From contig NC_090283.1 of NCBI RefSeq assembly GCF_037392515.1, positions 18,942,501-19,006,500 of the forward strand: a stretch of 64,000 nt of DNA. The letters are read 5' to 3'. Of this stretch, positions 5,238 through 58,629 are shown piece by piece. Both the position numbers and the translations under genes were made by a program. Source of the stretch: Haliotis asinina. Its lineage: Eukaryota > Mollusca > Gastropoda > Lepetellida > Haliotidae. Numbering within the stretch: the stretch's first letter is position 1; every line of letters begins with the position of its first letter. Below the pieces are notes generated by a model. It ran no database searches. It had not been told where the DNA came from and saw only the letters and a list, made by a program, of their open reading frames with translations.

Positions 5238-5737
5238 GGTTAATAATAGAAAGTTCACCATCCCACCTCCCCACCCTCCACCGAGTATCACATGGACAAC
5301 GCTATATACCAGTGGCTCTTCGACTGGCAGCACCAAGGATACTGGAATGGTATACTCCAGCAGAAGATTAATTCAAAATTAATCAATCCACCAGACTGAC
5401 CCATGAGCCACCGCCTTCTGGGCATAAGACTCTAGGCAAAGTTAATAACATCAGTTTTCAAATCTAAAAGTGTTATGTGAAAGAAACAGCCAAGGCCAAA
5501 ATTGAAACAGTACAAAATCAAATCTGTGCAATTACATGAATAATCCACGCACAGGGCTTGGCGTGACCACCCGTCTAGGCGAAGTCAGGGCCAAAGTGGT
5601 GTATTGAGCAACAGGAACACGGTTACAGGTCCCTATTGCCCTCAACCACCAGGATCCCCTCCGCCGACACAGGGCCGCAACTGACGGCAAACGGGTTGGT
5701 GGACCAAATATTCTCCCGGGTCCACTACGGGGGTGTC

Positions 5738-5853
5738 GGCGAGCTCTTCGCCTTACCCAACACCCACCACGAGGAGGTGGCTCGCCACGGGTGCCCCACG
5801 AGGAGGTGGCTCGCCACGGGTGCCCCACGAGGAGGTGGCTCGCAACGTGTGCC
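5738..5853 (-). ncRNA. C3 5' end: HDV-like ribozyme fold plus two extra 29-bp units
   Basis: The core fold is 5738-5795 on the minus strand: P1 GGCACCC with GGGTGTT, P2 GGCGAG with CTCGCC, P3 with loop CTCCTC, and the joining strand GGGTAAGGCGAAGA. Upstream of it two further partial copies of the first 29 bases (5796-5824 and 5825-5853) extend the element, and the outermost is mutated (GGCACACG). The insertion boundary still begins with GG. The extra units probably arose when reverse transcriptase repeated the end of its template. Confidence 0.6.
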
Positions 5854-9015: not shown

Positions 9016-9081
9016 GGAATGCAACCCACAGCAAACGGGTTGGTGGACCAAATATCCCCCCAGGTCCACAACGGGGGTGTT

Positions 9082-9138
9082 GGCGAGCTCCTGGCGTTAC
9101 CCAGCACCCACCACGAGGAGGTGGCTCGCCACGGGTGT
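9082..9138 (-). ncRNA. C1 5' end: HDV-like ribozyme fold, 5' terminus damaged
   Basis: On the minus strand the strands CACCC/GGGTG (P1), GGCGAG/CTCGCC (P2), the P3 hairpin with loop CTCCTC and the joining strand GGGTAACGCCAGGA are present. The first two G residues that begin other full copies are replaced here (CAACACCC), so the cleavage-site pair is lost. Confidence 0.5.
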
Positions 9139-9889
9139 TGTTTAGGAGCAGTTTGGACAGTTTTATGATATGAATAGATAGAGTATGAGTGATTATTGTT
9201 CCATGCTCCATCACAACTCACATTTAGCCATTCCAAGCTAACGGTCTCCCAAACGTAATGGCTGCTTTTGTTCCTGAGAAAAGGAAGGACGGTTGCCCTG
9301 TTTTCTTGCAAACCGTTCTCTTTATTTGTGAAATGTCTAAATCCTTTATTTATGTTGAGCAGGTTTTTATTAATGCTAGTGTGATCTTCAATTATCCATG
9401 GGAAAGTGAAAACATGAAAAGTTATTTCTGCAAGGTTTTAATGCACAGGTACGTCTCCGGACCTCCAGAGAAGCTCATGATCAGGAGCTTCATTGCACAG
9501 GATGCGAAACCCAATAATCCCGTAAAGAGTAACAATATACAGCATGGCGTGTATGACAACATTTAAGCAACTGCTAAACGGCTCAAAATGTGACTGAAGC
9601 CCTTTTCTACTTCTCATATTACCTGTAAAATTGGCAGTGGGTTGAAGAAAACAACGCGTTTGTTTAACGGAAGGTTAGATGGAAACGTGCTGAGGTAGTA
9701 TGAGCCGTGATGTCAGTGGCTGAAATTATTGTGAAAACAAACCCACGAGAACCCAGTATTTCATATCATAGAAAAGTCTTTTGGTACATACAATATGAAT
9801 ATATATCCTTGATATATGGAACCATAGACAATTATTTAAGCACGACGACATTTGAAAATTTAAACTTAAGAGTCAGTGTGTCAGTCGGT
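9139..9889. other. Unannotated flank of C1
   Basis: No gene, RNA or repeat is supported. Short open frames exist (for example 9258-9566 plus) but have no recognisable domain, codon signature or splice context. The sequence is AT-rich and ordinary. Confidence 0.5.
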
Positions 9890-18308: not shown

Positions 18309-18854
18309 GGTGGTATTGAATATGATTCACCCTCCTAGCTCCCCACCCACCACGGAGTGTCAACGAGGACAATGCCTACTGTATGCGGGTCTCCAGCACA
18401 CGGCACCAAGGATACTAGGAGGGTATACTCAAGCAGGAAAATATCCCAAAGAGATAAATCCTACCAGATTGGCCCTTGAGCCATCGCCTTCTGGGCATGT
18501 AAGACTCTAGGCAAATTTATATGTGACATATTTCTATTCAAGTAAAGTTTAACAAATAAAAAGAGTCGAAGCCTAAAAGTAACAATACAGTTCATTCAGA
18601 ATATAAGTTTTTTTGTGCAATTATAAGTAATGCACAGGGCTCGACATGACCAGCCGATTGGTTGAACCGGGCCCATTCAACCACCCGTCTAGGCGAAGTC
18701 AGGGCCAAAGTGGTGTATTGAGCAACAGGAACACGATTACAGGTCCCTATTGCCCTCAACCACCAGGATCCCATCCTCCGCCGACACAGGGCCGCAACCC
18801 ACGGCAAACGGGTTGGTGGACCAAATATCCCCCAGGGTCCACTACGGGGGCGTC

Positions 18855-18912
18855 GGCGAGCTCTTAGCGTTACCCAGCACCCACCACGAGGAGGTGGCTC
18901 GCCACGGGTGCC
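18855..18912 (-). ncRNA. C6 5' end: HDV-like ribozyme fold
   Basis: The first 58 bases of the element RNA can form the nested double-pseudoknot layout: P1 GGCACCC/GGGTGCT with a G-U pair at the first base, P2 GGCGAG/CTCGCC, P3 CCAC/GTGG closing loop CTCCTC, and the joining strand GGGTAACGCTAAGA. The element starts exactly at the first G, next to the 12-bp target duplication, as expected if the RNA is cut there. No P4 stem is visible. Confidence 0.65.
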
Positions 18913-32552: not shown

Positions 32553-33086
32553 GGTTAAGGTAATATGGTTCATCATCCGAGCTCCCCACCCACCACGGAG
32601 TATCACAAGGACAATGCTAAAGCAAGCGGGCCTCCAGTTTGCAGCACCAAGGATACCCGGATGATATACTCCAGCAGAAGAATTAAAAGATTAATAATTC
32701 TACCAGATTGGCCCATGAGCCACCGCCTTCTGGCATAGGACTCTAGGCAAAATACAGAACAACATATTTCAAATTCAAAAATGTTTTAGATTATAAAGCC
32801 AAGTCCAAATTTACAACAATTCCAAATGGTATATGTGCATTGATAAATATAATAATACCCCATGCACAGGGCTTGGCATGACCAGCCGATTGGTCGAACC
32901 GGGCCCATTCGACCACCCGTCTAGACGAAGTCAGGGTCAAAGTGGTGTATTGAGCAACAGGAACACGGTTGCAAGCTCCTATTGCCCTCAACCACCAGGA
33001 TCCCCTCCTCCGCCGACACAGGGCCGCAACCCACGGCAAACGGGTTGGTGGACCAAATATCCCCCCGGGTCCACTACGGGGGTGTC

Positions 33087-33144
33087 GGCGAGCTCTTAGC
33101 ATTACCCAGCACCCACCACAAGGAGGTGGCTCACCACGGGTGCC
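33087..33144 (-). ncRNA. C8 5' end: HDV-like ribozyme fold
   Basis: Same 58-nt layout: P1 GGCACCC/GGGTGCT, P2 GGTGAG/CTCGCC (a G-U wobble replaces one G-C), P3 CCAC/GTGG with loop CTCCTT, joining strand GGGTAATGCTAAGA. The element starts at the first G directly against the 12-bp target duplication. Confidence 0.6.
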
Positions 33145-37728: not shown

Positions 37729-38292
37729 GGCTAGTGCTTTAAGGTTCATCATCCAAGCTCCCCACCCACCACGGAGTATCACAAGGACAATGCTAATAAC
37801 AAGTGGGTCTCCAACTTGCAGCGCCAAGGATACTCGGATGATATACTCCAGCAGAAGAGCTATAAATAACAAATCTACCAGATTGGCCCATGAGCCACTG
37901 CCTTCTGGCCATAAGACTCTAGGCAAAGTTCAAAACATGAGTTTGAAAAATCGTGAACATTTGATATAAACAAATGTACCAAGTCCAAAAGTAAAACATT
38001 TGCAAATTAAATTTGTGTAATGACATACAAGTCCATACACTGGGCTTGGCGTGACCAGCCGATTGATAGAAACGGGCCGATTCTACCACACGTCTAGGTG
38101 AAGTAAGGGCCAAAGTGGTGTGTTGAGCAACAGGAACACGGTTCAGGCTCCTACTGCCCTCAACCACCAGACTACCGTCCTCCACCGACACGGGACGCAA
38201 CCCACGGCAAACAGGTTGCCCAATTCGGTCACTCCTTGCGACCAGCAATGGGATGCTATGGACCTAGTTGACCCGGGTCCACACGGGGGTTT

Positions 38293-38350
38293 GAATGGCT
38301 CTTGGCGTGACCCAGCACCCACCACGAGGAGGTGGCCGTTCACAGGTGCC
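38293..38350 (-). ncRNA. C9 5' end: HDV-like ribozyme fold, alternative P2
   Basis: P1 GGCACCT/GGGTGCT, P2 GAACGG/CCATTC with one mismatch, P3 CCAC/GTGG with loop CTCCTC, joining strand GGGTCACGCCAAGA. The P2 sequence differs completely from that of C6, C8 and C11 but both strands changed together, as in C12. Confidence 0.55.
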
Positions 38351-41636: not shown

Positions 41637-43432
41637 TTGATTATATTCTTGTTTATATTGTATTTCATTCGTTTCTGATTTTTAAATGATGTTAATGTTA
41701 GGTCAACATGTGGCCTAACCAACTGCCAAGGGGGAGAGGAAAGAAGACGGAAAGGAGCTACGTTGTCCAGCTCAATACCAGCAGCAGCAATAAACGGCTT
41801 TATTCTGAGCCCAAGAGGTGGAACAAGTGAAGACTTTGTGTTATACAAATCCTCATAAAGAGGATTGAAGACACAGTTATATGCAGGGTTAGATTTGTTA
41901 GAGTATAGTTTTGTGATATATTGTAAAGACAATTGTATACGGCGTTGTTTAAGAGACGGTTCATCAGTCTCAACATAGAGACTGTCAACAGGTGAGGTTC
42001 TGAAGGACCCAAGACAAAGTCTGAGACCTTGGTGGTGGATAGAAGCAAGAAGTTTCAGGTTGCTTTTACATGCTCCACCATATACGATGGAGCCATAATC
42101 AAGTTTAGATCGTACTAATGATCTGTATAAGTGAAGGAGGGTAGCTTGATCCCCTCCCCACTTTGAATTTGAAACAACTTTTAGCAAATCTAGTGCCTTC
42201 AGGCATTTAGCTTTAAGGGATTTAATGTCTGGTAAAAATGTTAAATGAGAGTCGAAAATTAAACCCAGGAACTTGGCCTCCTTTACAACTTTGATAGGGG
42301 TGCCATTTAAAGATAATTCTGGGTCCTTATGAGGCTTATATTGTCTACAAAAATGTATACAATTCGTCTTGGATTTAGAAAATTTAAAGCCGTTTTCAAG
42401 ACACCATTTGTTTATTTTGTTTAAACATAGCTGCAGTTGCCGTTCAATTGTATGCATATTTTTACCACGACAGGAAATATTAAAATCATCGACAAATAAT
42501 GATCCATCAATTGAATCGTTTAAAACCTTGGATAAACTGTTGATCTTGATGCTAAAAAGTCTGACAGACAAAATACTGCCTTGAGGGACACCTTGATCCT
42601 GATTGTAATGATCAGACAGGGTAGAACCCACACGAACTTGAAATTGTCTGTCTTTTAAAAATTCTGATATGAAAAGAGGCAAACGGCCCCTCAAACCAAA
42701 ATAATGCAAATCTTTCAAAATGCCATGCTTCCAGGTTGTATCATAAGCTTTCTCAAGATCAAAGAAAATTGATACAGCATGTTGTGTATTTACTATAGCA
42801 TTTTTAACGAAGAATTCTAAACGTACCAAATGGTCAGTGGTACTACGATTTTTCCTGAAACCACACTGAATATTGGTTATTAGGTTATTGGTTTCAAGAT
42901 ACCAAATTAATCTATTATTCACCATACGTTCCATGGTTTTACAGACACAGCTAGTTAGGGATATTGGTCTGTAGTTTGACAGATCTCTATGATTCCTGCC
43001 AGGCTTTGGTACTGGGATTACAACAGCATTACACCATGATGGAGGAAATTCCCCAGACGTCCATATTGTATCAAATATATCTAAAAGGGTCATCAAGCAT
43101 GGTTCAGGTAAGTGTTTCAGAAGCTGGTAATGGATATTATCGTCACCGGTAGCAGTGTCATGAGCTTGCTCAAGAGCAGTTTGTAGCTCATGTAATGAAA
43201 ACACTTCATTGTAATCTTCACCGTTATTTGATTCGAAATTAAGTTTTGTCTTTTCCTGTTGTTTCTGATATCTCTGAAACTCAGGAACATAATTTGTTGA
43301 TGATGAATTTTTGGCAAGAGTTTCTCCGATTTTATTCGCAATTTTAGACTTATCAGTAATTAAATTATCACCATCTTTGAGATGGTGTATGGCAGATTTG
43401 GAACCTTTGCCTTTAATTCTTTGAATCATGTT
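41633..43432 (-). pseudogene. C10 ORF2, reverse transcriptase part
   Basis: A long open frame with FFDLEKAYDTTW, GVPQGSILSVRLF, LFVDDFNIS and KFLGLIFDSHLTFLPDI. The open frame seems to begin further right (to 43606) only because it runs into the antisense of the C11 5' UTR; the true sequence enters from 49422 across the C11 insertion (KVWNMIQRIKGKG joins RTPMSKVW). It ends in NQKRMKY after the linker frameshift. Confidence 0.87.
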
Positions 43433-43444
43433 CCAGACCTTGGA

Positions 43445-43502
43445 GGCACCCGTGGCGAGCCACCTCCTCGTGGTGGGTGCTGGGTAACGCCAAGAGCTCG
43501 CC
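43445..43502 (+). ncRNA. C11 5' end: HDV-like self-cleaving ribozyme candidate
   Basis: P1: 43445-43451 GGCACCC with 43475-43481 GGGTGCT (first pair G-U). P2: 43454-43459 GGCGAG with 43497-43502 CTCGCC. P3: 43460-43463 CCAC with 43470-43473 GTGG, closing the loop CTCCTC. Joining strand 43482-43495 GGGTAACGCCAAGA, in which C43490 is the candidate catalytic C. This matches the HDV-like layout (nested pseudoknot, GG after P1 able to pair with C residues of the P3 loop), except that no P4 stem is visible. HDV-like ribozymes at the 5' ends of R2, RTE and L1Tc elements are established. Cleavage here is inferred. Confidence 0.7.
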
Positions 43503-44015
43503 AACACCCCCGTAGTGGACCCGGGGGATATTTGGTCCACCAACCCGTTTGCTGTGGGTTGCGGCCCTGTGTCGGCGGAGGAGGGGATCCTGGTGGTTGA
43601 GGGCAATAGGGGCCTGCAATCGTGTTCCTGTTGCTCAATACACCACTTTGGCCCTGACTTCGCCTAGACGGGTGGTCGAATGGGCCTGGTTCGACCAATC
43701 GGCTGGTCATGCCAAGCCCTGTGCATGGAGTATTGTTATATTTTTCAATGCACACATATCATTTAGAATTGTTATAACTTTGGACTTGGCTATATTAACT
43801 AAAACATTTTTGATTTTGACATATGTTGTTCTGAAATTTGCCTAGAGTCCTATGCCAGAAGGCGGTGGCTCATGGGCCAATCTGGTGGAACTATTAATCT
43901 TTTAATTCTTCTGCTGGAGTATATCATCCGGGTATCCTTGGTGCTGCAAGCTGGAGATCCGCTTGTTTTTAGCATTGTCCTTGGGAGCTCGGATGATGAA
44001 ATCTCAACACTAAAT

Positions 44016-45281
44016 ATGGCTTATGAAATCCCCACAAAACAAAACAAACGTCCTCTTGAAAATGATGTTGATGATAATGACCTTCGACCGTCCAGATCAA
44101 TTGAGTTTTGGCCACGCTTTCTTGTTATTGAATCTGCTGATAAAACGCCTCTAAAATTGAACCCGTTCGCAGTTGCCAAAGGTATTCAAGGTATTGCCGG
44201 GGAAGTAAAGAACATTAAACGGTTACGTTCAGGTGCACTGCAGGTTGAGTGTGGGAAACGGCAGCAGTCAGTCAATTTGATGAGCATAGAATCGTTTGTT
44301 GGAATTCCGGTTACTGTATTTGCTCATAAGACGTTAAACACGAGCAAAGGGATCATCAGAGACCGTGATCGGTTGTTTTCTGACATGACAGAACTTGACA
44401 TCATGACTGAAATGAAAGATCAAGGTGTGCTTGACGTCAAACGCTTTTCAGTCCGTAAAAACAATGAAAGTGTTCCAACCAATACTTATCTGTTCTCCTT
44501 TTCATCTCCGACAGCTCCAAAATCATTGAAGGCTGGTTACTGCAACATCAAGGTTGACGTGTACATTCCGAACCCGCTGAGATGTTTTAAATGTCAGAAG
44601 TACGGCCATGGTGTAAATACTTGTACATTGTCCGTTGTGTGTGCCCACTGTGGTGAGAAGACACACAGAAGATTGTACCAGCGATTTTAAGAAATGCACC
44701 AACTGCTCAGGCGACCATTCCTCATTTTCTAAACAATGTCCTGTTTGGAAAGAACAAATGGAAATAAATAAAATCAAATTCACTCAAAATATCTCTTTTT
44801 CTGAGGCCAAAAATATAGTAAAAAGATCTGATTTTCCAGAAAGTTATGCTGCAGTAGCAAAAACAACATTGGAGTCACGCTCCAAAATAACAAAATCATC
44901 CACAGGCTGCCAAACTACCTTGACTTGGGTAAATTGCGATTCTCCACAGCTTTTGTATCCTGCTATATCATCACAGACTGAGGAACCACTTCCTAGTACC
45001 TCAAAGTCGTCTTCTGATCACAAATCATCACCATCTCAGTCACATTCAAGGTCTCAATCAACATCTGATCAAACGGTGAAAAGTAAACCGAAGCCAAAGC
45101 CTGATGCTTACAACACAGTAGCAGAGCTCCTAAGGGGTCACAAAATAAAATTCAATTGTACAATAAATATGGGTCTCTTGAAGATATGGACGTTTCTGAA
45201 AATGTCCATTCTAGGGCACATAGCTTGTCGCCCTCCAAAAGAGTGCGGGGTAGATCCCCAATAAATCCACCCAAAAGATAG
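44016..45281 (+). pseudogene. C11 ORF1, frameshifted
   Basis: Starts at ATG 44016 (MAYEIPTKQNKRPLENDVDD). It is intact through the N-terminal domain and the first knuckle (CFKCQKYGHGVNTC), then loses five bases inside CAHCGEKTH at about 44660, which shifts the frame. The remainder is read in frame 44635-45264 (CTNCSGDHSSFSKQC, Ser-rich tail) with a further shift before the end. The ORF1 stop position is TAG at 45279-45281 in AAAAGATAG, shared with C1 and C10. Confidence 0.83.
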
Positions 45282-47830
45282 TTTATTCCAATAATATTGT
45301 ACAGTGGAACTGCAGAGGATTGAGGACAAATTTACATGAATTACAGTTATTAGTCCAAGATTTAACACCTTCAGCGATGTGTCTCCAAGGGACATATTTA
45401 GAACAAACAGATACATTTGACCTTCGTCATTTTAATGCATATCATTGTTTTTCACCTCCGGGTGATAGGGCCACTGGCGGATCATCCATTCTAGTCAAAC
45501 AAAACGTTATTCAAAGCCCTGTTTCACTTCATACTAATATGCAGGCTGTTGCAGTGAGAATTACTTTACATGTAGCGTTTACGCTATGCTCTCTTTATAT
45601 TTCACCATCTTCGGCTTTTGCCAAAACCGATCTTCAAGCTCTATATGATCAGCTCCCGAAGCCCTGTATTATAATGGGAGATTTAAATGGGCACAACCCA
45701 CACTGGGGTAGTGTAAATACAAACACTAGAGGTAAATTGTTGGAGGACTTTTGTTCTGACAATGACTTATGTATTTATAATGATGGTTCCAGCACATATT
45801 TACACCCTGGTACAGGGACCTATTCTGCTCTCGACTTGTCATTGACAAATTCAGAACTATTAAATGAATTCGAATGGTCAGTCCACGATGACCTCTGTGG
45901 AAGTGACCATTTTCCTACTATATTAAAAGCTGTAACTCCATCCGATGTTCCTCCATCATCAAGACGGAATTTTAAAAAGGCTAACTGGGCTTTATATGAA
46001 ACACTGTGAAAAACTAAACTAAAACTAAAAAGCCAGAACGTTTTATTGACGTTCCTGATGCTATTAAATCTTTTTCTGATGAACTGAATTCCATAGCTGA
46101 TGAGTGTATACCAAAGTCCTCTGTAGTTCCACACATAAGAAAACCATGGTTCAACGATGAGAGCAAACAAGCTAGGAAAGCAAGGAAAAAGGCAGAACAT
46201 TATTTCCGTCGCCATCCTATGGTGCATAATTTAAACAAATATAAAATTTTAAATGCTAAAGCACGGCGTACTTTTAAACAAAACAAACGCCAATCTTCTC
46301 AAAATTATGTGTCCAAAATAAATTCTCGGACACCCATGTCCAAGGTATGGAACATGGTCCAGAAAATTAAAGGTAAAGGTACTAAATCTACTGTCCATCA
46401 TCTTAAACATGGAGATCAATTGCTTACTTATAAATCAGATATTGCTAATAAACTGGGTGAAACCCTTGCTAAACACTCTTCCTCTTCAAATTATGTACCA
46501 AAATTCCAGCAATATCAAAAACAAGAAGAAAAGAAAACTATTAATTTCAATTCTGATAATGGGGAAGATTATAATGAAACGTTTTCTATTCATGAACTCC
46601 ATACTGCTCTTGATCAAGCTCATGACACTGCTACAGGAGCTGATAACATACATTATCAACTCCTGAAGCACTTACCGGAATCCTGCCTAGAAACTCTTCT
46701 CAATATTTTTGATGATGTTTGGACATCGGGTAACTTTCCTCCTTCATGGTGTGACGCCATAGTGGAACGCATGATAAATAATCGACTTGTTTGGTACTTG
46801 GAAACAAATAACCTTATCACAGATATACAATGTGGTTTCCGTAAAAACAGAAGTACTGTCGATCACTTAGTGCGACTGGAATCATTTGTTAAAAACGCAC
46901 TAATTAATCAACAACATGCTGTGTCTATCTTTTTTGATCTTGAAAAAGCATATGACACAACCTGGAAACATGGTATTTTGAGGGATTTACATGACTTTGG
47001 TTTGCGAGGTCGTTTGCCTCAATTTATTGCCAACTTTTTAAATGACAGACAATTCCAGGTCCGTGTGGGTTCTACCCTGTCTGATCATTACAATCAGGAT
47101 CAGCGTGTTCCACAAGGCAGTATTTTATCTGTCACTCTTTTTAGCATCAAGATCAACAGTTTATCAAAGGTTTTAAACGATTCAATTGATGGATCGTTAT
47201 TTGTGGATGATTTTAATATTTTTTGTCGTGGTTAAAATATGCATACAATTGAACGGCAATTGCAGTTGTGTTTAAACAAAATAGATAAATGGTGTCTTGA
47301 AAACGGCTTTAAATTTTCCAAATCGAAAACTAACTGCATACATTTTGTCGTAAATACAAACAGCATAAAGACCCTGAACTGTCTCTAGATGGGACGCCCA
47401 TTTAAGTTGTGATGCAAGCCAAATTCTTGGGCCTAATCTTTGATTAACATTGAACTTTTTTACCACATATTTAATCTCTTAAAACTAAATGCCTGAAAGC
47501 ACTTGACTTGTTGAAAGTGGTTTCAAATTCAAAATGGGGAGGGGATTAAACTACCCTTCTCCATCTATATCGATCACTCGTTCGTTCTGAACTTGATTAT
47601 GGCTCCATCGTCTATGGTGGAGCCCGCAAAAGCAATCTTAAACTTCTTGATCCTGTCCATCACCAAGGTCTAAGACTTTGTCTTGGATCCTTCAGAACTT
47701 CACCTATTGACAGTCTTTACGTTGAGGCCGATTAACCATCACTTGCACAATTATCTTTACAATATATCACAAAACTATACTCTAACGAATCTAACCCTGC
47801 ATATAACTGTGTCTTCAATCCTCTTTATGA
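45282..47830 (+). pseudogene. C11 ORF2: endonuclease and reverse transcriptase, broken
   Basis: The ORF2 frame enters without an AUG (IVYSNNIVQWNCRGLRTNLH), overlapping ORF1 in the -1 frame. The first Met is 45320, past the conserved WN of the endonuclease. The endonuclease (MGDLNGHNPHWGS, GSDHFPT) ends at a stop at 46009 caused by an extra AAACT-rich stretch. The frame 46219-47235 has the linker and reverse transcriptase with an in-frame ~30-residue loss (CDAIVERMINNRLVW), FFDLEKAYDTTW, RVPQGSILSVTLF and LFVDDFNIF, then TAA. The thumb, 47236-47830, is heavily frameshifted. Confidence 0.85.
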
Positions 47831-47834
47831 GGAT

Positions 47835-48875
47835 TTGTTTAGCAAAAGGTCTTCTCTTGTTCCACCTCTTGGGCTCAGAATAAAGCCGTTTATTGCTGCT
47901 GCTGGTATTGAGCTGGACAATATAGCTCCTTTCCGTCTTCTTTCCTCTCCCCCTTGGCAGTTGGTTAGGCCACATGTTGACCTAACATTAACTACATTTA
48001 AAAACTCAGAAACGAATGAATTACAGTATAAACAGGAATATAATCAATTGAAACATATATATAACAATTACAAATCCTTATTTACAGATGGGTCCAAGGA
48101 CGGTGGTGCAGTTGCTTGCGCTACTGTCATTGGATCCAGAACAATATCTTTTAGATTACCAGATAATAGTTCTATTTTTACAGCTGAAGCTAACGCCATA
48201 TTAACAGCTCTTAAATATATTAAAAGACACCCGAAACGTAAACAGTATATAATATATTCAGACTCTCTTTCTTCCCTTCAGGCTATTAAAAATATTTCTT
48301 GTAAACATCCACTTTTAATTGAAATTACTGAACTGTATAATGCTCTTGCTACTGGCCAATACGACATCGTCTTTTGTTGGTTACCCAGTCACGTAGGTAT
48401 TTCTGGGAATGTGATGGCCGATCTTGCTGCCAAGGCAGCACTCAGGAAATCTGTGACGCCACTTCTTCTTCCATATTCAGATTACAAAGTTAGCATTAGA
48501 ACGTATATCCGTGATCTGATGCAGAAGAAGTGGGACACTCAAGTAGGTATCAATAAATTACATGAAATAAAACCGTATATTTGCTACACCTACTTGGGTT
48601 GTCAGTCCAGATTTGAGGAGGTCATCATGCGACGATGCCGTATTGGCCACACAAGATATACACATAAATATTTGCTTAAAGGTCAGCAATCTCCGTTTTG
48701 TATCCCTTGTGATGGAAGAATCACAGTCAAGCATATCCTGCTTGACTGTGTTGAGCATTTTATTACAAGGGATCAGTATTTTAATCCACGAACTCTGAAG
48801 GATCTTCTTAATAACACAAGCTCTCATTTAATCATTGCATTTTTAAAAGAATTGGATTCATTGACCGAATTGTAA
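47835..48875 (+). pseudogene. C11 ORF2, thumb end, RNase H and Cys/His motif
   Basis: Open for 346 codons through the linker (TTFKNSETNELQYKQEY), RNase H (LFTDGSKDGGA, FTAEANAILTA, IIYSDSLSSLQA, CWLPSHVGISGNVMADLAA) and the C-terminal motif CIPCDGRITVKHILLDC. It has the linker in frame, like C8 and C12. It is not a gene on its own; its upstream part is broken. Confidence 0.85.
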
Positions 48876-49111
48876 ATAGATAAATATTTTATTATTGGAA
48901 GTTTAAAGTCATAACTGTGCTTGTTAGTGGCTGTATCCTCAAAGGGGGTTGAAGTAATGTAAAACTATTGTCCTCCTGAGAGGGTACGTAAGTCCACAAA
49001 CATTCAAAGTAAATTCTAAATTTCCACCTTTTTAATCGTAGTATAAGTGTTTTTTATTGTATGGCTAGATTTCCCAAATTGCTGACGGCTGAGGGGATGA
49101 TGTAAATCCAG

Positions 49112-49161
49112 CTAGGGTCCATGCAGGTAGCAAAGGTACTGTAAGTCCCCATGGTCCCTAG
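49112..49161 (+). promoter_or_regulatory. LINE 3' UTR hairpin (conserved core)
   Basis: CTAGGGTCCATG (49112-49123) can pair with CATGGTCCCTAG (49150-49161) over 11 of 12 positions with a central T-T mismatch, around a 26-nt loop. The block and the GATCTACCTTCAGTTGTT that follows it are conserved in all copies that keep the 3' UTR, and are still visible in the old relic C5. It is probably an RNA structure used in reverse transcription or export; the role is inferred. Confidence 0.55.
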
Positions 49162-49350
49162 TATGGTGATCTACCTTCAGTTGTTAGCAATCTATAGCCC
49201 ATTTTTATCTTGTATTGTCCTCTGTAGATAAATTGTTTTAGGTATAGTTACTAGTTTTATATTCTCATCTGTGATATTCTAGTTGTTTTACTGTCCTTCA
49301 CTGACAGGTTTTATAATAGACATATATTTCATTTCAGTATTAAATGTTCT

Positions 49351-49409
49351 CGTCACGATATGGCTGAGATATTGCCGATGTGACGTAAAATATTAACTCA
49401 CTCACTCAC
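49351..49409 (+). promoter_or_regulatory. LINE 3' terminal hairpin and CTCA tail
   Basis: CGTCAC (49351-49356) pairs with GTGACG (49380-49385) around a 23-nt loop with GATATGGCTGAGATATTGCC, followed by TAAAATATTAACTCACTCACTCAC. The last bases of the element are the simple repeat on which target-primed reverse transcription ends or starts. The SINE copies carry the same arrangement with a different but paired stem. Confidence 0.7.
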
Positions 49410-49421
49410 CCAGACCTTGGA

Positions 49422-56988: not shown

Positions 56989-57048
56989 GTGAACGGCTCT
57001 TGGCATGACCCAGCATCCACCACGAGGAGGTGGCCGTTCACGGGTGCC
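56989..57048 (-). ncRNA. C12 5' end: HDV-like ribozyme fold with switched P2
   Basis: P2 is GTGAACGGC with GCCGTTCAC, nine perfect pairs, where C6, C8 and C11 have GGCGAG/CTCGCC. P1 GGCACCC/GGATGCT has one mismatch. P3 CCAC/GTGG and loop CTCCTC are unchanged, and the joining strand is GGGTCATGCCAAGA. Both strands of P2 differ from the other subfamily and still pair, which is strong evidence that the helix exists. Confidence 0.65.
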
Positions 57049-58051: not shown

Positions 58052-58101
58052 GGCACCCGTGGCGAGCCACCTGCTCGTGGTGGGTGCTGGGTAACGCCAA
58101 G
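58052..58101 (+). ncRNA. C13 5' end: ribozyme fold with deleted P2 strand
   Basis: P1 GGCACCC/GGGTGCT and P3 CCAC/GTGG (loop CTGCTC) are present, but the joining strand GGGTAACGCCAAGA runs straight into CACCCCCATGG: nine bases containing the P2 3' strand are missing. The fold should be unable to cleave. Confidence 0.5.
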
Positions 58102-58629
58102 ACACCCCCATGGTGGACCCGGGGGATATTTGGTCCACCAACCCGTTTGCCGTGGGTTGCGGCCCTGTGTCGGTGTAGGAGGGGATCCTGGTGGTTGAGG
58201 GCAATCGGGGCTTTTGACCGTGTTCCCTTTGCCCAACACACCACTTTGGCCCTTTACTTCACCTAGACGGGTGGTAGAATGGGCCCGGTTCGACCAATCG
58301 GCTGGTCATGCCAAGCCCTGTGCGTGGATTATGTAATTGTACAAATTTGATTTTATATTGTTTCAATTTAGGTCTTGGCTTTTCACTCATATAACACTTG
58401 TAAATTTGAAAAGTGATGTTATTAACTTTGCCTAGAGTCGTATGCCCAGAAGGCGGTGGCTCATGGGCCAATCTGGTAGATCGATTAATTTTCTATTAAT
58501 CTTCTGCTGGAGTATACCATTTCAGTATCCTTGTTGCTACCAGTCGGAGACCCACTGGTGTATAGCATTGTCCATGTGATACTCGGTGGAGGGTGGGGAG
58601 CTGGGATGGTGAACTTTCTATTATTAACC

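Follow-up and report, generated by a model that had tools for sequence, protein, structure and literature searches.

A predicted HDV-like ribozyme lacking P4 at the 5' end of a LINE family in the abalone Haliotis asinina

The LINE family and its 5' junctions

The DNA analysed here, a 64-kb stretch of the Haliotis asinina genome referred to as the window, contains eight 5' ends of one LINE family. All eight carry the fold described below, some of them in damaged form (Table 1). The copy at 43445–49409 opens with GGCACCCGTGGCGAGCCACCTCCTCGTGGTGGGTGCTGGGTAACGCCAAGAGCTCGCCA, and its first base, 43445, is position 1 of the fold numbering.

Table 1. Features of the LINE family in the window. Numbers in brackets are fold positions; all ribozymes are predicted.
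Feature	Position	Strand	Remarks
LINE copy with ribozyme	43445..49409	+	CCHC knuckle in ORF1; separate open frames for APE endonuclease, RT and RNase H
Target-site duplication CCAGACCTTGGA	43433..43444	+	Second copy beyond the LINE 3' end, near 49410
Predicted HDV-like ribozyme, P4-less, 59 nt	43445..43503	+	Predicted cut directly 5' of 43445
P1 5' strand GGCACCC	43445..43451 (1–7)	+	Partner GGGTGCT at 43475–43481 (31–37); 7 bp, first pair G-U
P2 5' strand	43453..43460 (9–16)	+	Partner at 43496–43503 (52–59); 8 bp
P3 ACC/GGT with L3 TCCTCGT	43462..43474	+	P3 at 43462–43464/43472–43474 (18–20/28–30); L3 at 21–27
P1 3' strand, then GG	43475..43483	+	GG partners CC of L3 (P1.1)
Joining strand GTAACGCCAAGA (GTAAC-G-C46-CAAGA)	43484..43495 (40–51)	+	Predicted catalytic C at 43490; without P4
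Ribozyme, copy 33144-	33085..33144	-	12-bp TSD
Ribozyme, copy 18912-	18853..18912	-	12-bp TSD
Ribozyme, copy 5795-	5736..5795	-	Preceded by tandem partial repeats of its own first 29 nt
Ribozyme, copy 57048-	56989..57048	-	P2 type TGAACGGC/GCCGTTCA; one P1 mismatch
Ribozyme, copy 38350-	38291..38350	-	P2 TGAACGGC/GCCATTCA, one mismatch
Ribozyme, copy 9139-	9080..9139	-	First two bases AA instead of GG
5' end, copy 58052+	58052..58111	+	P2 3' arm deleted

According to Pfam, APE endonuclease, RT and RNase H domains lie in open frames of several copies, and ORF1 CCHC knuckles were found by pattern in two. The combination of APE, RT and RNase H in ORF2 with CCHC in ORF1 is typical of, but not exclusive to, I-superfamily LINEs. 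The predicted domain make-up agrees with the I superfamily, whose clades across molluscs are reported to be Nimb and ingi, beside one unknown clade (PMC10294476).

In a collection of 5.8 billion proteins, the closest proteins were 63% identical, and most of the best 120 of 251 matches were unnamed; one named relative is from the limpet Patella caerulea. A protocadherin encoded in the abalone assembly is 93% identical to one of Haliotis cracherodii, and COX1 gave no match in the assembly. In viral contigs, scanned twice, no relatives were found. Genome contigs, scanned once, yielded four related loci: three came from assemblies of two Solemya gill symbionts and the fourth from a Sulfurovum bin. 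L070 alone of these seems to hold a whole 5' leader; L072 starts inside the leader, and L069 and L071 start at or within ORF2. No ribozyme was found in L069–L072 using Rfam, our own descriptor or a covariance model built from the family (best E 0.34). The 5' leader of L070 resembles the abalone leader further down, yet no ribozyme was found in it. The L070 element (L070:5363-10657) is a complete-looking animal LINE in a 537-kb Solemya velum gill symbiont contig, to be explained either by host sequence that entered the assembly or by a transfer. The motif GTCGTAAGAGGCGACTAAA of the 5' leader is common to one abalone subfamily (L080) and the Solemya element (L070, near 5010).

To sample the family, we searched the genome DNA with window copies and kept the best 40 of 2842, 40 of 4242 and 41 of 3577 first-look candidates; the family seems to be large in this genome. 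The 121 listed places gave 68 excised loci and 73 starts. A genome search with RF02682 listed a further set of 35 places, none above the cut-off and the best at 37 bits, all of which were added. Together with the window copies, the pooled set comprised 108 copies with distinct surroundings, biased in that its members were picked either by likeness to window copies with a start in the first three bases or by RF02682 score. P2 pairing was seemingly not selected for, because the RF02682 alignment has pairs for P1 and P3 only. The pooled set held 65 distinct 60-mers; three without the P2 3' arm (58052+, L073 and L075) were omitted, and the remaining 62 were aligned, including L029, whose P2 3' arm is partly replaced. 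Two internally deleted copies were also noted: L073 keeps the ribozyme start (about nt 1–45), and L077 seems to fuse the ribozyme start to endonuclease-coding sequence, the coding part having been read by eye.

The 5' junction was examined in the 105 pooled copies with distinct upstream flank, one copy with a 9-nt flank having been dropped. Pairwise identity was 0.24–0.30 at positions −10 to −1 versus 0.93–0.98 at +1 to +7. Homology ends sharply at the first P1 base across these 105 chosen copies, a start among the first three bases having been a condition for the choice of most. Target-site duplications were sought in six of the eight window copies. An exact 12-bp TSD adjoins G1 in three of the six (43445+, 33144- and 18912-). 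For 5795- and 57048- the search found none, and 58052+ runs to the window end. The claim of the initial annotation that the element begins directly against its target duplication is borne out for three of the six. Copy 43445+ is nested inside an opposite-strand copy of the same family, the halves of which overlap by 12 element positions (2895–2906), in agreement with the 43445+ TSD.

On the minus strand at 5796–5853, tandem partial repeats of the element's first 29 nt directly precede the 5' end of copy 5795-. This was the sole case among the 105 flanks when three exact strings were sought within 60 nt. The repeats stop after the 3' strand of P3; a reverse transcriptase that jumped close to the RNA 5' end could have left them.

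The fold, its detection and its covariation

The 59 nt at 43445–43503 fit an HDV-type nested double pseudoknot with the strand order P1-P2-P3-P3'-P1'-P2'. J1/2 is a single nucleotide, G8, and the two P1.1 pairs join 43466–43467 to 43482–43483 (positions 22–23 and 38–39). The G-C of the joining strand lies at 43489–43490; across the family, the next base is C, T or G, followed mostly by AAG. From the usual layout of HDV-like ribozymes and the alignment with RF02682, we take C46 to be the counterpart of the catalytic C of HDV J4/2. The fold has no P4 stem, and 5 nt (GTAAC) separate the GG of P1.1 from G-C46. The initial annotation had anticipated most of this anatomy, and its elements were located as described: an HDV-like fold at the exact LINE 5' end, with a G-U pair opening P1, P2, P3 and a GG after P1, a joining-strand GC followed by C/U/G and purines, and no visible P4. 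Its P3 with a CTCCTC loop falls at the same place in another register, CCAC/GTGG having been proposed where we find ACC/GGT around L3 TCCTCGT.

Rfam models recognized the locus weakly. RF00094 and RF02682 gave the two best-scoring matches within 43300–43800, starting at 43443 and 43445, respectively. The RF00094 match scored 26.3 bits against a cut-off of 50, with its 3' part spread to 43591; that of RF02682 spanned 43445–43501 and scored 22.7 bits against a cut-off of 44. A piece of the ribozyme was matched by drz-agam-1 (RF01787; 14.5 bits, cut-off 37). No Rfam family reached its cut-off anywhere in the window. Over the genome, RF02682 was the better of the two models tried (37 versus 33.1 bits for RF00094), both remaining below the respective cut-offs of 44 and 50. 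Because these scores lie below the curated cut-offs, we do not file the ribozyme under either family.

A covariance model built from the family, with all eight window copies except 58052+ in its training set, gave the eight copies scores of 71.5 to 86.6 bits; the match that ranked next, with 15.4 bits, lay in the tandem repeats preceding copy 5795-. Our own loose HDV-like descriptor, run on both strands of the window, recovered four of the eight copies (43445+, 33144-, 18912- and 5795-) and no other loci, and missed the other four; it also matched copy 5795- from the repeated start at 5824. Among 20000 dinucleotide shuffles of the 100-nt 5' end, 9 were matched by the descriptor at position 1; in a separate set of 20000, 43 carried a match at any position. 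When ten shuffled windows were searched on both strands, 19 tile hits resulted, some of which may be double-counted as the tiles overlap. By these rates, an isolated descriptor match is not rare; what is rare is that several copies are matched at the first base of the element. A nested energy model gave no signal (z −0.29); such a model is unable to represent a pseudoknot.

Directly 3' of the ribozyme, at 43507–43540, lies a candidate H-type pseudoknot (CCCCCG/CGGGGG and GTGGACC/GGTCCAC). It was present in 61 of 71 distinct regions, yet also in 321 of 710 shuffles, and four real examples were equalled by 39 to 56 of 500 shuffles. It is a weak candidate.

Across the 62 distinct aligned copies, 94.9% of cells of the whole structure form standard pairs; shuffling gives 88.8%, and sliding the strands gives 33 to 46%. 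The P1.1 pairs 22-39 and 23-38 are present in 96.8% of cells. For P2, 93 cells are changed on both sides, where shuffling gives 39.5 and sliding no more than 9, and the covariation score was 0.466 versus 0.218 and at most 0.088, respectively. Measures that count P2 pairs or pair types did not exceed shuffles (4 versus 4.2 and 10 versus 12.3), and other P2 covariation measures are inflated by relatedness among the copies. P1 and P3, taken alone in the 62 aligned copies, showed nothing beyond shuffles and no detectable covariation because both hardly vary. Of the covariation expected in the initial annotation for P1 and P2, that of P2 is found, and P1 is neither supported nor contradicted. On this comparative evidence, the pairing of P2 is supported by compensatory change.

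Exact P2 5' arms sort 106 copies into subfamilies A (24 copies), B (56), B2 (4) and C (7), with 15 bearing other arms. The majority arms are TGGCGAGC/GCTCGCCA in A, TGAACGGC/GCCGTTCA in B, TGAACAGC/GCTGTTCA in B2 and TGAAGAGC/GCTCTTCT in C. These four majority sequences can be joined by double changes at the adjacent pairs 11-57, 12-56, 13-55 and 14-54. A path A–C–B2–B, in which pairing-preserving double changes affect two pairs in the first step and one pair in each of the next two, is our own reading of the four sequences and involves no tree. The outermost P2 pair, 9-59, is lost in subfamily C. P1, P3 and P1.1 are identical across the four majorities except for one G-U in one subfamily. C46 is conserved in 102 of the 106 copies, as is the GG of P1.1, and in 71 of the 106, P1, P3, P1.1 and C46 are all retained and no more than one of the seven pairs 10-16/52-58 is missing.

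Predicted function and alternative explanations

The order of the fold, its core residues, its exact 5' position and the covariation of P2 together point to an HDV-like ribozyme where the LINE begins. We consider it very probable that 43445–43503 is a self-cleaving ribozyme and that its cut defines the start of this abalone LINE, cleavage being a prediction from sequence. Points against this reading are the lack of covariation in the nearly constant P1 and P3, the two P2 measures that stay within shuffles, the Rfam scores below cut-off, the energy model without signal and the related Solemya L070 element, in which no such ribozyme was found. We infer the transcription from outside, the cleavage and the use of the cut RNA in retrotransposition. 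In the proposed mechanism, transcription would start in upstream DNA and run on into the element, which would then be part of a longer RNA. Synthesis of the 3' arm of P2 would allow the fold to form, C46 would act like the catalytic C of HDV J4/2, and the chain would be cut at the border between flank and element, just before G1. As the 3' product, this would yield an element RNA starting exactly at G1 with the ribozyme retained, such that each new insertion would carry the ribozyme and the same first base.

The same bases might instead form a structured 5' leader that serves protein binding, reverse transcription or translation without cleavage, resembling HDV in shape only. Leader roles are known for element RNAs, such as the R2 5' pseudoknot (PMC8256844), and the weak candidate pseudoknot directly downstream would suit such a leader. 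Nevertheless, a leader fold would not need C46, the GG of P1.1 and L3, which are kept in nearly all copies, nor would a mere leader need to start at the insertion junction. We regard this explanation as unlikely.

Two further possibilities carry less weight. An internal promoter acting at the DNA level in the first 60 bases would explain both the conservation and the fixed start. The ribozyme segment of L1Tc doubles as a promoter (PMC8256844), so promoter and ribozyme can coexist; the compensatory changes in P2, however, are expected of RNA pairing and not of protein–DNA contacts, which makes a promoter by itself very improbable. Chance resemblance within a GC-rich segment is the least credible explanation: the loose descriptor does occasionally match shuffled windows, as the 19 tile hits illustrate, but it matched position 1 in 9 of 20000 shuffles, and P2 covaries.

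The site offers a compact natural ribozyme candidate that exists in many sequence variants and whose compensatory evolution can be traced in them. It also suggests a way for a dispersed LINE to keep an exact 5' end.

Comparison with known HDV-like ribozymes

The closest precedent is an HDV-like ribozyme of Haliotis discus in which 5 nt replace P4 (Webb & Luptak 2011, as cited in PMC3774820). H. discus belongs to the same genus as the host of the present LINE, and 5 nt likewise stand in the place of P4 in the H. asinina fold (GTAAC). The two were compared by description only, and the position at a LINE 5' end is demonstrated for the H. asinina genome only; on these grounds, the H. discus ribozyme and that at 43445–43503 are probably the ribozyme of the same family. 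The LINE thus probably supplies a genomic home for the known P4-less abalone ribozyme. We did not meet a tie between the abalone ribozyme and a LINE 5' end in the open-licence literature; Webb & Luptak 2011 may state it. A joint reading that goes further is offered as tentative: in an animal LINE family, a 59-nt P4-less HDV-like ribozyme with a 1-nt J1/2 would be fixed at the 5' end, and stepwise double substitutions in its P2 would have produced at least four subfamilies. The start of this LINE would be the abalone ribozyme of 2011, and the 29-nt repeats would reflect copying by the reverse transcriptase of RNA cut at G1.

The ribozymes of silkmoth R2 also lack P4 and process the 5' end of a retrotransposon, and their catalytic C has been tested (PMC3774820). 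They differ from the abalone ribozyme in J1/2, of 216–498 nt versus 1 nt, and in that P1 consists partly of 28S rRNA sequence and the element is site specific (PMC3774820). The initial annotation suggested, from the lack of a visible P4, that the abalone fold may be a minimal variant; the newness of such a variant is weakened by these P4-less reports from silkmoth R2 and abalone (PMC3774820).

As predicted for the abalone LINE, the ingi-clade L1Tc/ingi elements of trypanosomatids carry 5' HDV-like ribozymes (Pr77); set beside it by description, they differ in their hosts and in a 77-nt segment that doubles as a promoter (PMC4035085). The ingi clade, to which the L1Tc named in the initial annotation belongs, is placed in the I superfamily (PMC4035085 and PMC10294476). 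The minimal drz and theta ribozymes, with which we group Rfam RF02682, lack P4 as the abalone fold does; in the searches of PMC10879173, nearly 99% of the minimal ribozymes were in phages, mostly of the gut, with the theta subgroup beside tRNAs.

The P3/L3 letters of drz-agam-1 (RF01787), ACC-TCCTCGT-GGT, are identical to those of the abalone ribozyme. The drz-agam-1 ribozyme has a P4. Overall, HDV-like ribozymes of retrotransposons, and a similar one in abalone, are already known, and what is added is the tie to an APE-RT-RNaseH LINE. The present data extend, without changing it, what is known of HDV-like ribozymes in non-LTR elements.
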